From positions 1-24,798 of the IMG/VR virus record IMGVR_UViG_3300025886_000152: a stretch of DNA of 24,798 bases. The stretch is one strand, 5' to 3'. Source of the DNA: a virus. The position numbers and the translations under genes were made by a program. The stretch's first letter is position 1, and every line of letters begins with the position of its first letter. Shown piece by piece: positions 2 through 23,451 of this stretch. The notes beneath the pieces were generated by a model that saw nothing but the letters and a program-made list of their open reading frames with translations, was not told where the DNA came from and searched no databases.

Positions 2-1819
2 GCAAAAGTCAAGTGGTTGTCACAATTTGCGGCATCAGAACTTGCTAAGTCTCACGACGTTAAGTTGAAAGCAAAAGACTACATGGAATCTCTATCATTT
101 AGTGATTTGCGTAAAAATCTTGAAGAATCATCTAAAGAGTCTGTGGAACTTGATGAAGCAATTGACTTCCGTAAAGCACATCAAGAAATCATGGCATATG
201 CCAAGAAGAGTGGTGGTATTGACAAGACTGACTTTGAGAAGGTTGCATACTACGTCAAAGCAATCGGTGACAATCAGAACACACCTAACGTAGCAAACAA
301 AGCATTCATGGCAATGAAGAAGTTTGTTGGTGATATGGATACTGATCCCCGTGATGGTGTGATGTTGATGCTCAAGAAGCATGGTATGATGAAGAATGGT
401 CGTTTGGTGCAAGAGTCTATTACCGAAGGTGCGCTCGGAAAACAATGGGTAAATGGTGCAAAAAGGGTTAAATCTGGTAGTATCACTCTAGTAAAAGCAA
501 AGTTTGCTTACGATTTACATACTGTGATGAAAAATGGTAAGAAGGTTGGTACTTTTGTTTTCGACGATGGTCCAGACGCATTCTCGGTAACGAATATGTC
601 TACCAAGAAAGTCAGTTGGGCAGATCAGATCGATGATATTCCTAAAATGTTTGAGTCGAAAGCGCCTGCACTAAAAAGTTCAGATTATGCGAAAGGTACT
701 TATCAATCTGCACAGGCATTCAAAGATAAGTTTGCCAAAAAGAAGAAAGAGAAGAAAGAGTCTGTTGATGAAGCATCTAAAGAAGGTACGGTTCGTATCA
801 TTGATTTGGGTAACAAAGGACAAGACAAAATTCGTAAAGAGTTGGGTGTTGATAAACTTCCAAACAAAGGTTTCCAAGTACAGGTTATGACTAAGGGTAA
901 ATTTGTAAACCAAGGTAAACCTTACAAGACTATGAAGGATGCAGAGAAAGTTCGAAGTACTGGACAACACTCAATGCAGTTCGATGAAGCAGCACTTGAA
1001 GAAAAGACTAAGTGGAAAATGGGTGATGGTCGTCCAAGAAACGGTGCTCGCATAGAGAACGAAAGATTCTGGGACTTACCGTATGATTCTTTAAAGTATA
1101 TCGCCAAAGATGCTGGTGAGGCCATGAAAGCCAATCCCACCGCAAGGAAGGCAACTACTGGACCGGGCAACTGGGCAGACCAAGTTGCGGATGCTGCCAC
1201 AGTCATGCAATGGAGAAAGAAAAACGGTATTAGGGAGTCTGTAGAACTTGATGAAGCTATGTACAAAGTTGAAATTGAAGGATTGCCTACAACATATGTT
1301 GATGGTGCTAGTCCTGGCGAAGTCAAGAACGTACTCAGAAGGTTGCTGAAAAAACCTGACTATATTCGTATGGTCAAACGTGCACCCGAAGCAGAGATGA
1401 AGCAGTATTTCCGTATGAAAGCTGCGGGTAAAGATGTGGATGAAGCATTCGAAAACGAACTCGATGAAGCCGTTGATAAAACAATGTTAGCAAAAGTTGA
1501 TAAACTTATGGAGCCCACACAATCCGCAAAACAAGCAATTGAAATCGTTGCTAAAAAATTGACTGCTGGTGATAAGAAAAAGGCGGAAAAACTCGTTAAG
1601 CAAGTCTTAAACAGTTATCTTGGAGAAAAATTGGATCCTGTCGGACAAGCCGATGCTGATATTGATAACGATGGTGATGTTGATAAGTCAGACAAATATC
1701 TGAAAAATCGCAGAAAAACAATTAAAAAAGCCATCAAGAAAGTCAAAAAAGAAAAAGATCCTAAAACGATTAGCGGTAAACAAGAAAAAGTAGAAGTAAG
1801 TCCTAAAGTAGACTTATAA
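2..1819 (+). CDS. Modular virion/head protein, probable prohead polyprotein (5' end outside window)
   Basis: The open frame runs in from the window edge: codons from base 2 are in frame, so the TTG at 17 is unlikely to be the true start. Numbering from that TTG, about 600 residues are visible. They look like unrelated small domains joined by acidic linkers with E-L-D-E-A or V-D-E-A motifs at residues 44-48, 250-253, 411-414, 474-477 and 482-485. Recognisable modules are a segment around 351-405 (FWDLPYDSLKYIAKDAGEAM) and one at 415-472 (YKVEIEGLPTTYV), both types I know from marine T4-like structural proteins. Residues 548-559 form an EF-hand/dockerin-like calcium loop (DIDNDGDVDKSD). The C-terminus is very lysine-rich. 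The linkers fit the T4 gp21 prohead protease rule [L/I]-x-E|[A/G/S], so I infer an internal head polyprotein. The exact role is unknown. A late promoter for the next gene overlaps its stop codon. Confidence 0.75.
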   Translation, partial: AKVKWLSQFAASELAKSHDVKLKAKDYMESLSFSDLRKNLEESSKESVELDEAIDFRKAHQEIMAYAKKSGGIDKTDFEKVAYYVKAIGDNQNTPNVANKAFMAMKKFVGDMDTDPRDGVMLMLKKHGMMKNGRLVQESITEGALGKQWVNGAKRVKSGSITLVKAKFAYDLHTVMKNGKKVGTFVFDDGPDAFSVTNMSTKKVSWADQIDDIPKMFESKAPALKSSDYAKGTYQSAQAFKDKFAKKKKEKKESVDEASKEGTVRIIDLGNKGQDKIRKELGVDKLPNKGFQVQVMTKGKFVNQGKPYKTMKDAEKVRSTGQHSMQFDEAALEEKTKWKMGDGRPRNGARIENERFWDLPYDSLKYIAKDAGEAMKANPTARKATTGPGNWADQVADAATVMQWRKKNGIRESVELDEAMYKVEIEGLPTTYVDGASPGEVKNVLRRLLKKPDYIRMVKRAPEAEMKQYFRMKAAGKDVDEAFENELDEAVDKTMLAKVDKLMEPTQSAKQAIEIVAKKLTAGDKKKAEKLVKQVLNSYLGEKLDPVGQADADIDNDGDVDKSDKYLKNRRKTIKKAIKKVKKEKDPKTISGKQEKVEVSPKVDL

Positions 1820-1848: not shown

Positions 1849-2700
1849 ATGGCATTATGGGGAAATACGGACGCACTAGCTAGTGCTCCAAAATATGTTG
1901 CACCAACACGCGCAGTTGATATGTCGTCTGCTGGTGAAGTTGCGGCAAACGTTATTACAAATCATGGGCACGGATTTATCACTGGAGATCCTGTAACTTA
2001 TACTAGCACAGCCGCGGCTACTAATCTAGTTAGTGGTACGGTATACTATGTTATTCGTTTAACTTCCAGCACATTCAGCCTTGCAGCCACTCCTGCCGCC
2101 GCATTGGTTCCAACACCAATTGTTCTTACCAACGACGGCGATGCTGCAGACACATTTCAAAAAACACCAGACAACTTGTATTTTGTTGACATTTCTGAAG
2201 CAGATTCTAACAAAGCTACAGGTCTTGGTACTGGTGGTTGGACGGAATATACAACATACACAGATGGTCACGGAAACACTCGGAACAAATCTGAAGTATT
2301 GATTGCTATGGCTCGTACTGCAGCAGAAGCTGGCGACACTGGTATTTTGGGTAGTGATGATGATGTTGTTTTTGATACATTGATTACAATCACGACGCAA
2401 CCTTTGCAATCTGATGCTACTGTTGATATCACAGGGCTTGCAGCTGCTACCCTTACTATTGCTGCTTCAGCTTCACCCGCACAAGCAGTTACATACGATT
2501 GGCAGTCATCTGCTGACGGGTTGACTGGTTGGGCTACCGCAACGGTTGCTGGTAGTACCACAACAACAACTTTATCGATTGTCGATACTGACGGTGATTA
2601 TGTTGCTGGTAGATACTTCCGTTGTGTTGTGTCTTCAGCAGGTGCTCTTGCTGCAGATCCTGTAGTATCAAATTCTGTAGTATTGACACAAAGCGCATAA
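1849..2700 (+). CDS. Virion structural protein with C-terminal Ig-like domain
   Basis: This 283-residue protein starts at ATG 1849 behind AGGAGAG. The N-terminus (MALWGNTDALASAPKY) is of a type seen in marine T4-like structural proteins. Next comes a beta-rich Thr/Ala/Val segment, then a middle block with DISEADSNKATGLGTGGW and an E-Y-T-x-Y-T-D-G-H-G-N-T-R pattern at about 110-145. The C-terminal 100 residues look like an immunoglobulin-like fold, with a central YDWQSSADG tryptophan strand and a GRYFRCVVSSAGA strand near the end. Ig-like domains on tailed phages usually sit on capsid or tail surfaces and bind carbohydrate weakly, so I infer an exposed decoration or tail protein. It has its own late promoter, which supports a virion role. 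Confidence 0.7.
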   Translation: MALWGNTDALASAPKYVAPTRAVDMSSAGEVAANVITNHGHGFITGDPVTYTSTAAATNLVSGTVYYVIRLTSSTFSLAATPAAALVPTPIVLTNDGDAADTFQKTPDNLYFVDISEADSNKATGLGTGGWTEYTTYTDGHGNTRNKSEVLIAMARTAAEAGDTGILGSDDDVVFDTLITITTQPLQSDATVDITGLAAATLTIAASASPAQAVTYDWQSSADGLTGWATATVAGSTTTTTLSIVDTDGDYVAGRYFRCVVSSAGALAADPVVSNSVVLTQSA

Positions 2701-8748: not shown

Positions 8749-9152
8749 TGTGGAAATATAAAAATCAAGAGTTTATTTCTGAAATGATTGGTGACTCTTA
8801 TGGATTCGTCTATGAGATCACCGACACAGAAAATAAAATGAAGTATATTGGTAAGAAGTGGTTTTGGAGCACGAGGAAAAAACCCCCGCTGAAAGGCAAA
8901 ACCCGAAAGCGTATAATAAAAACCGAATCCGATTGGATGAAGTATTACGGGTCGAGCGAAGAAGTCAAACTCCTAGTTGAGCAGGAAGGTACCGAAAGAT
9001 TTGCACGAGAGATCTTGAGGTTGTGTAAGACTAAGGGCGAATGTAGCTATTGGGAACTAAAATATCAGCTGGAATATGATGTTCTATTGAAGCCCGATGA
9101 GTACTACAATTCTTTTGTTGGAGCAAAAATACACAGGAACCATGTAATATGA
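8748..9152 (+). CDS. GIY-YIG-like nuclease, putative
   Basis: The 134-residue protein shows G19-F-V-Y22 and K-Y33-I-G35-K-K, a fair match to the two strands of the GIY-YIG nuclease core. Downstream candidates for catalytic residues are R87 (RFAREIL) and E103 (YWELKYQ). The segment W63-M-K-Y-Y-G-S-S and the closing YYNSFVG also fit this family in phages. It could be a free-standing homing-type or DNA-processing nuclease; no attached DNA-binding domain is visible, so function in the phage is uncertain. The start overlaps the zinc-ribbon stop, and the end overlaps ClpP by ATGA. Confidence 0.65.
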   Translation: MWKYKNQEFISEMIGDSYGFVYEITDTENKMKYIGKKWFWSTRKKPPLKGKTRKRIIKTESDWMKYYGSSEEVKLLVEQEGTERFAREILRLCKTKGECSYWELKYQLEYDVLLKPDEYYNSFVGAKIHRNHVI

Positions 9153-9733
9153 GTGAGATTATGAAAGAATCTAACGTAGTAAGAAATCCAGTACCAATTG
9201 GGTTTATCTTCAACATATACCTCAGCGGTGATATCAAATCATCTGAAGAATATCTTGATGCTTTTGAGGTAATAAGAAACGCACAGCAGAATGATATCGT
9301 CTACATCCACATCAACTCACATGGCGGTGATGTTTCCACAACCATACAGTTTATTCGTTGTATGGGAGATTCTAAAGCGCACATAGTATGCTCGGTTGAA
9401 GGCTACTGCATGTCAGCAGCGACTATGATATTTTTGTGCGGAAACTCTTTTGAGATTTCTGACCATTCTGTCTTTATGTTTCACGATTATTCCGGCGGCA
9501 CGTTTGGCAAGGGTGGAGAAATGTACGATCAAATTACACACGAGCGAAAATGGACCGAGGGCATCCTCCAAGACATCTACCAAAACTTCCTTAACAAAGA
9601 AGAACTGGAATCTTTGATTGGTGGTAAGGACATTTGGATGACTGCAAAGGAAGTGTCATCGAGATTGCATAAACTCAACAAACTCGAAGAAGAAAAAGAC
9701 AAGAGAAAATCAAAAGCTAAAAAAACTAAATAG
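9149..9733 (+). CDS. clpP: ClpP-like serine protease
   Basis: This is a ClpP/crotonase-fold peptidase of 194 residues, close to the usual bacterial length. The nucleophile is S89 in GYCMSAATM, the histidine is H112 in VFMFHDYSGG, and D161 in GGKDIWMTA completes the triad. An oxyanion-type INSHGGDV motif lies at 55-62. The C-terminus ends in a Lys/Glu tail (KLEEEKDKRKSKAKKTK) not typical of host ClpP. T4-like marine phages often carry such a gene. It could act with a host ClpX/ClpA or process virion proteins; the sequence does not decide. The start codon overlaps the preceding stop (ATGA). Confidence 0.88.
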   Translation: MSEIMKESNVVRNPVPIGFIFNIYLSGDIKSSEEYLDAFEVIRNAQQNDIVYIHINSHGGDVSTTIQFIRCMGDSKAHIVCSVEGYCMSAATMIFLCGNSFEISDHSVFMFHDYSGGTFGKGGEMYDQITHERKWTEGILQDIYQNFLNKEELESLIGGKDIWMTAKEVSSRLHKLNKLEEEKDKRKSKAKKTK

Positions 9734-22776: not shown

Positions 22777-23451
22777 ATGTTAAGATTTTCACAATTCTTG
22801 GAAGAGGGTGTCAACGACCCCGCAATCTTTAAAGCAATATTCTTGGCTGGAGGCCCCGGCAGCGGTAAATCGTTTATGATTGGGCAGACAGCTCTAACTT
22901 CTCTTGGGTTTCGGCTCGTTAACTCTGACCACGCATTTGAAATCGCAATGAAGAAAGCCGGCGAAGAGATGTCACCCGAGTTCATCGGTAGCGACAAAGG
23001 GCAGAGCATGCGCAACGCAGCAAAAACTCTTACGGGTAAGCAACAAGAGTTGTACCTCAAAGGGCGCCTCGGGGTTGTCATCGATGGTACCGGCAGAGAC
23101 TACGCTAAAATCTCGTCGCAAGCCAATCAGATGAAGAAGTTAGGTTATGATGTAGGTATGTTGTTCGTCAATACCAATCTCGAAACCGCAAAAGATCGCA
23201 ACCAAGCTCGTGCTAGAACGTTGCCTGATGATGTGGTGACGGGTTCTTGGAATGACGTACAGAACAACATTGGTAAGTTTCAGTCGTTCTTTAGACAGAA
23301 CATGATGATTGTCGATAACAGCGATGGCGCTGATTGGAAATCTGGTACGATGAAAGGTTTCAAGTGGGCAACAAAATTTGCAAAGCAGCCACCACAGAAC
23401 GCTGCGGCTATTAAATGGATTGCCAGTCAGAAGAAAGGTCGAGCAGTTTAG
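22777..23451 (+). CDS. P-loop kinase (zeta-toxin/AAA_33-like) with T4-type capsid-targeting leader
   Basis: The 224-residue protein has a Walker A, G25-G-P-G-S-G-K31-S (FLAGGPGSGKS), and a Walker B-like V-V-I-D103-G-T-G-R-D. A VNSDHAFE segment (D51) and an arginine-rich lid (RNQARART) are as in zeta-toxin-type and small-metabolite kinases. The substrate is unknown. Residues 1-11 (MLRFSQFLEE|G) match the T4 internal-protein leader MKTYQEFIAE|A: aromatic at 4, F7, I/L8 and E10 before a small residue. With the late promoter, this suggests that the protein is packaged in the head, trimmed by the prohead protease and delivered with DNA (inference). The ribosome binding site is weak. Confidence 0.75.
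   Translation: MLRFSQFLEEGVNDPAIFKAIFLAGGPGSGKSFMIGQTALTSLGFRLVNSDHAFEIAMKKAGEEMSPEFIGSDKGQSMRNAAKTLTGKQQELYLKGRLGVVIDGTGRDYAKISSQANQMKKLGYDVGMLFVNTNLETAKDRNQARARTLPDDVVTGSWNDVQNNIGKFQSFFRQNMMIVDNSDGADWKSGTMKGFKWATKFAKQPPQNAAAIKWIASQKKGRAV

Follow-up and report, generated by a model that had tools for sequence, protein, structure and literature searches.

In phage T4 the prohead protease gp21 cuts after the motif L/I-X-E, and targeting needs no more than the first 10 residues of IPIII (PMC9026906). T4 ipII and ipIII start with MKTYQEFIAE|A and the leader of ipI ends in TITE|A (the bar follows the Glu of known or predicted cuts). T4 IPI, which is injected, blocks a restriction enzyme; the internal proteins of the T-even phages are diverse behind a conserved CTS, the only part that they share (PMC3012670). 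The gene described here is like those of IPI, IPII, IPIII and Alt in its putative short leader ending in an L/I-x-E|A type of site, in the gp21-type protease of the same phage, in its small basic predicted products and in the rapid replacement of sequence behind a conserved junction. However, in T4 every internal protein is encoded separately and with a CTS of its own, whereas here many modules lie in one chain behind one leader, with sites between them.

Another point of comparison is provided by the polyvalent proteins (Iyer et al. 2017, PMC5512222), which also carry many domains per chain, are thought to be injected and show extensive domain mosaicism, with processing proposed for some of them. 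Their domains are largely recognizable enzymes, and the processing proposed for them would be carried out by built-in metallopeptidases, whereas the modules described here are short and mostly unrecognized, and the cutter would be a predicted prohead protease acting at uniform sites. Giant phages of the phiKZ/SPN3US type likewise have many internal head proteins that the prohead protease cleaves behind a short Glu-ending motif, and multi-site propeptides occur (PMC9026906, PMC5694885), but what each of these proteins loses is a propeptide, and the chain is not split into several mature proteins. A search of the open-access literature, with subscription journals and preprints outside its scope, returned no description of such an arrangement; within that scope, the arrangement proposed here would join two known themes, the T4 internal proteins and the polyvalent proteins, in a form that we did not find described.

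The window, a 24,798-nucleotide stretch of viral DNA (IMG/VR record IMGVR_UViG_3300025886_000152), begins with a plus-strand ORF (2-1819, stop codon at 1817-1819) of 605 amino acids that is open at its 5' end. The original prediction numbered residues from the TTG at position 17; since the frame runs past the 5' edge of the window, this TTG is not the start, and residue numbers in the open frame are those counted from it plus 5 (e.g. E52 is E47). In the TTG numbering, all eight sites resembling those of a prohead protease that had been named are present (LEE37|S, LDE47|A, ITE137|G, VDE252|A, FDE324|A, LDE413|A, VDE476|A and LDE484|A), and there are three further sites of the same pattern (VQE133|S, MFE213|S and IRE407|S). 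At several of these P3 is V, F or M, which is outside the strict L/I rule of T4. The pattern [LIVFM]xE[AGS] occurs 11 times in the ORF against an expectation of 2.2 +/- 1.4 (none of 5000 shuffles reached 11), its subset [LIVFM]DEA 6 times against 0.08, and the strict L/I-x-E|A/G/S form 6 times against 0.87, while the control patterns xD[AGS], xK[AGS], xE[KRQ] and the reversed motif stay near expectation in the same ORF. Site density is 1.82 per 100 residues, compared with a mean of 0.41 for the other genes of an overlapping record, in which the two densest genes, and the only ones comparable to the ORF, encode a gp22-like scaffold and the gp21 protease; both of these are gp21 substrates in T4. 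The predicted pieces (Table 1) are all basic (pI 8.2-9.8) and about 39-116 residues long, a wider range than the 70-116 first given. The window part of the gene alone would yield at least seven module-sized pieces, as against the T4 type of one mature protein per gene. The calcium-type loop DIDNDGDVDKSD was correctly located at 548-559 (DADIDNDGDVDK runs from 546 to 557). The ORF gave no Pfam domain above cut-off, nor any match in PADLOC.

Table 1. Predicted modules, sites and other features of the window
Feature	Coordinates	Strand	Relatives or evidence
End of upstream module (AKVKWLSQ..KAKDYMES) to site LEE|S	2..127	+	Also in L003, L005, L007, L124, L147, in other contexts
Linker DNA repeat, copy 1 (GAGTCTGTGGAACTTGATGAAGCAAT), encoding ESVELDEAI	137..162	+	Shuffle breakpoint in L003
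Predicted site LDE|A, P1 Glu at open-frame residue 52 (E47 from the TTG)	155..157	+	
M1 (AIDFRKAHQ..LVQE), four predicted helices, E52|A53 to E138|S139	158..415	+	AlphaFold pLDDT about 80; 39 distinct contexts
Two predicted sites, VQE|S and ITE|G	413..427	+	
M2 (GALGKQWVNG..KMFE)	428..655	+	Also in L003, L004, L057, L194
M2b (SKAPALKSSDY..SVDE), small, Lys-rich, terminal predicted site VDE|A	656..772	+	
M3 (ASKEGTVRI..MQFDE)	773..988	+	Preceded by xDE| in 7 different upstream contexts
M4 (AALEEKTKW..RESVELDE), terminal predicted sites IRE|S and LDE|A	989..1255	+	
Linker DNA repeat, copy 2, 92% identical to copy 1, encoding ESVELDEAM	1235..1260	+	Shuffle breakpoint in L003
M5 (AMYKVEIEGLP..KDVDE), predicted beta-beta-alpha-beta-alpha	1256..1444	+	11 homologous contexts
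Short spacer, predicted VDE|A to LDE|A	1445..1468	+	
M6, basic C-terminal piece	1469..1816	+	PHROG 4359, E 2.5e-13
EF-hand-like loop DIDNDGDVDKSD within M6	1658..1693	+	Sequence
Neighbouring gene, head protein family	1849..2700	+	PHROG 613, E 1.5e-23
ClpP-like protease	9149-9733		PHROG 1827, E 2e-61
Stand-alone P-loop kinase, zeta-toxin/AAA_33, CTS-like leader MLRFSQFLEE|G	22777..23451	+	Internal module elsewhere

The upstream part of the gene is seen in a 52.7-kb record (G010), one end of which (locus L018) coincides with the start of the window in an exact overlap of 127 bases. This part encodes 386 amino acids and starts with MKDDIKE|SLRIRQRDVKP, a CTS-like N-terminus; from the 127-base overlap we infer that L018 and the window form one gene. 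A further locus, L012, has the same upstream part as L018 and continues with another insert, and thus there are variants at precisely that site: after KNLEE, L012 reads GSREADIKK.., the window reads SSKESVELDEAIDF and the L018 contig stops. This divergence would fit module variants within one population. G010 carries T4-type tail, head and replication genes, among them gp23 (PF07068), in which TSLLE|APTN is a probable propeptide site comparable to FLTE|A of T4. The gp21-like protease that the original prediction proposed to look for in the same genome is also found in this record, outside the 24.8-kb window: it belongs to family S77 (PF03420, E 5e-40) and retains the GELxHP and GVSxRG motifs of T4 gp21. 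Such a protease is likewise present in two genome-sized records, most of the other records being fragments that lack it. CTS-like starts are also seen in relatives (MKRLSEISE|A, MKKLTQITE|A and MTDNIDE|A). Directly before the polyprotein in G010, the genes g50-g53 (L021-L023) mostly have CTS-like starts of their own (MKTFSNFLSEQ, MYSFKQFINEQ and MKTFRQHLEE), and among the products of this run are a cytidylyltransferase-like protein that stands alone and one that is very rich in Arg and Lys.

Comparison with relatives, 18 loci in a first set and up to 180 more (some overlapping), revealed the same modules of 40-120 residues in other orders with the junction site kept, in line with the expectation that homologues would have shuffled domains and conserved linkers. 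The window order M1-M2-M2b-M3-M4-M5-M6 becomes M2-M2b-M3-M4-M1 in L003 and M1-M2-M2b-M4, without M3, in L004; in L005, M3-M4 directly follow the first piece and M1 and M2 are absent; and in L112, M3 occurs alone in another chain without its window neighbours (window 765-991, 97.8% DNA identity). The DNA blocks shared with the closest relatives mostly have 94-99% identity, and their ends lie in linkers. In L003, window positions 419-1260 are followed by 137-421, joined within the 26-base linker repeat, and the DNA breakpoints lie at 774 to 983 in L004 and at 160 to 756 in L005. In the close family, 35 of 58 homology breakpoints (60%) fall within 5 residues of a site against 14% by chance, and 47% fall within 3 residues against 9%, with control motifs flat at the same breakpoints. 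Across all 140 non-redundant proteins 16% of breakpoints are within 3 residues of a site against 6%, the excess being 2- to 3-fold; it is smaller partly because two very short motifs move without flanking sites. When all the proteins were cut mechanically at the sites, 220 pieces fell into 38 recurring families, compared with about 110 pieces in about 20 families for random cuts; at 80% mutual coverage the figures were 128 pieces in 29 families against about 23 in about 5. The two mobile motifs, DNDGDVDKSDKYLxxRRKAIKKA (in M6 of the window) and DPCWxGYxxVGMKKKxGKxVPNCVP (residues 84-110 of the L018 polyprotein), are found in many viral contigs and move independently of the predicted cleavage sites, the latter also in cyanophages and in Halorubrum tailed viruses.

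A module that stands right behind a T4-type leader in one phage can lie inside the chain in a second phage and still have the site: MKRLSEISE|AIDF and MKKLTQITE|AINF (L010, L013) correspond to internal ESVELDE|AIDF (window, L104), the leader MVSFKNFCE|ATYQGKK to internal VSIEE|AEYQGRE, and the leader MISFKQHLAE|GVNDPAIFKA to internal QQELGE|GINDPSIFKA. A site lies exactly at the junction in 53 of 182 internal contexts, against 2% expected, with 71% having no exact site. The profile of M1 alone fetched 80 loci, some of them already among the earlier records, which were reduced to 39 distinct contexts; in 31 of these the N-terminal boundary of M1 carries a site, against 8% by chance. Of 20 aligned M1 junctions, 19 have L, I or V at P3, and the residues seen at P2 are D, N, S, T and E; the Glu at P1 in all 20 follows from how the pattern was constructed and is not counted as evidence. 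A P3 that is kept hydrophobic beside a varied P2 is characteristic of a protease site and not of a linker that has merely been copied. Furthermore, the LDEA junctions use codons much as the remainder of the genes does, and therefore DNA identity alone is not what is conserved; on this ground we rejected the idea that the linker is kept purely as a DNA recombination signal.

Given that the full-length MAFFT alignment set fragments of one module on another, structures were predicted for two stretches of the chain, residues 43-262 and 325-495 of the open frame. In the former, AlphaFold predicts the four-helix fold of M1 from residue 53 to about 135, with confidence below 50 up to E52 and from E138 on. 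In the latter, a dip at 412-417 parts M4 from M5, the first predicted strand of which starts just after E418. In the resolved parts of these models the motifs do not lie inside folded domains, the placement that the original prediction had named as speaking against it: M1 is confidently folded only between E52 and E138, and the sites at the border of M4 and M5 lie in the confidence dip. Models other than that of M1 are of low to middling confidence, and M2 and the sites at E218 and E257, for which there are few relatives, are not resolved in them. Foldseek searches gave no match at E under 0.001, and we do not treat a hit to the anti-CRISPR AcrIC9 at E 1.6 as evidence. Likewise, the VIA-align matches of M4 to ribosomal L29-like helical hairpins (Z about 6) and of M5 to the RNA-polymerase-binding protein YkzG (Z 5.1) are within the range of common arrangements for that tool and were not used.

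The original reading of the gene as a head polyprotein with prohead-protease sites is thus upheld at the level of sequence evolution, with support for the term "head polyprotein" coming from a leader that resembles a CTS, from the protease and from the T4-type character of the genome. We consider it likely that the ORF belongs to a modular internal-head polyprotein with one N-terminal CTS, which is cut by gp21 into several basic cargo proteins. The ORF would represent the C-terminal two thirds of this polyprotein in a T4-like marine phage. The short putative CTS at its N-terminus would bring the whole chain into the prohead core, where every [L/I/V/F]-x-E|[A/G/S] junction would be cleaved behind its Glu by the gp21-like S77 protease, freeing about seven or more small basic proteins of 40-120 residues. 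By analogy with T4 IPI, these may remain among the DNA and probably accompany it on injection, and the modules would then probably be injected factors. Of these steps, we infer the cutting itself, the location in virions and the injection, as well as any effect on the host. Since the linkers on both sides of every module are of one kind, recombination at the linker DNA would swap, delete and insert modules with packaging and release unharmed. As an extension to which we give even chances, the linker might have two roles, a protease site at the level of protein and a recombination seam at that of DNA, in a cassette system that would let T4-like marine phages swap the modules of an injected effector kit while the CTS and gp21 of the resident phage package and release the newcomers.

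An alternative, which we regard as unlikely, is that the chain is a polyvalent protein packaged and injected whole, with the ELDEA linkers acting only as flexible joints and recombination seams. The linker DNA repeats do mark exchange points, and the literature describes polyvalent proteins of 2-15 domains that are injected together with phage DNA, the virion RNAP of phage N4 being packaged unprocessed (PMC5512222). However, flexible joints need neither the hydrophobic P3 nor the varied P2 of the junctions; the near-background codons of the LDEA junctions, the recurrence of the same residue pair at the end of the CTS-like leaders of stand-alone versions, and the absence of Pfam and PADLOC matches for the ORF also argue against an uncut polyvalent protein.

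If the chain is cut, its fragments might still be assembly parts rather than cargo, leaving the head as the gp21 fragments of the scaffold-like core proteins gp22, gp67 and gp68 do in T4. This is highly improbable in our estimate: the pieces are domain-sized and M1 has a predicted compact fold, modules recur at more than 94% DNA identity across otherwise different genes, relatives hold enzyme modules (cytidylyltransferase-like and zeta-toxin-like kinase) in the same arrangement, and module content is highly variable, unlike that of an essential scaffold. These points outweigh the similar site density of the gp22- and gp21-like genes of the same phage and the presence of such sites in T4 gp22, gp67 and gp68, which are degraded. 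We attach the least probability of all to cutting by some other protease, perhaps after injection, be it a host enzyme or the ClpP-like protease encoded in the window. The site motif is that of T4 gp21 and of the gp23 propeptide of this phage, and ClpP enzymes are not known to cut at a defined Glu motif.

If this reading is true, the cutting of one chain into many cargo proteins by a prohead protease would be the tailed-phage counterpart of the polyproteins of animal viruses. It would account for many "hypothetical" genes in T4-like marine phages, give a simple rule for splitting such genes into mature proteins, and point to dozens of small candidate injected proteins, possibly anti-defence or host-takeover factors, that domain libraries have missed. 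The idea is directly testable on cultured phages. A tblastn search of these with the window ORF gave no match, and relatives among them were reached only via neighbouring modules: Pelagibacter phage HTVC008M, Methylophilales phage Melnitz, Phage C48C1 (Kyanoviridae) and Agrobacterium jumbo phage Atu_ph07, all four of which have a gp21-like S77 protease. Their homologues, annotated only as hypothetical or cytidyltransferase, are like the window chain in having related modules, CTS-like leaders (MTRYTKTMAE|A, MKKFSEIIE|A and MKWNDLNE|A) and internal sites, but differ in having other module sets and fewer sites per chain. In some of these chains there is an enzyme module, cytidylyltransferase-like or of the zeta-toxin-like kinase type. 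In gp053 of Atu_ph07 the kinase follows EVTE|G within a chain of 778 residues, whereas in the window it is a separate gene, with homologues in HTVC008M, Melnitz and Atu_ph07 gp053; judged by its sequence, the window kinase is probably a separately encoded internal head protein. The cluster of Atu_ph07 that includes gp053 (CDS 31-76) contributes 29 virion proteins identified by mass spectrometry, a total for the cluster and not for gp053 individually (PMC6102473).

Relatives of the C-terminus of the ORF occur in 403 viral stretches, most of them, among the matches listed, through the M6 motif. A polyprotein of the same type is also encoded by a contig filed under the metagenome-assembled bacterium TMED46 (L215), which is probably a phage contig binned with the bacterium.
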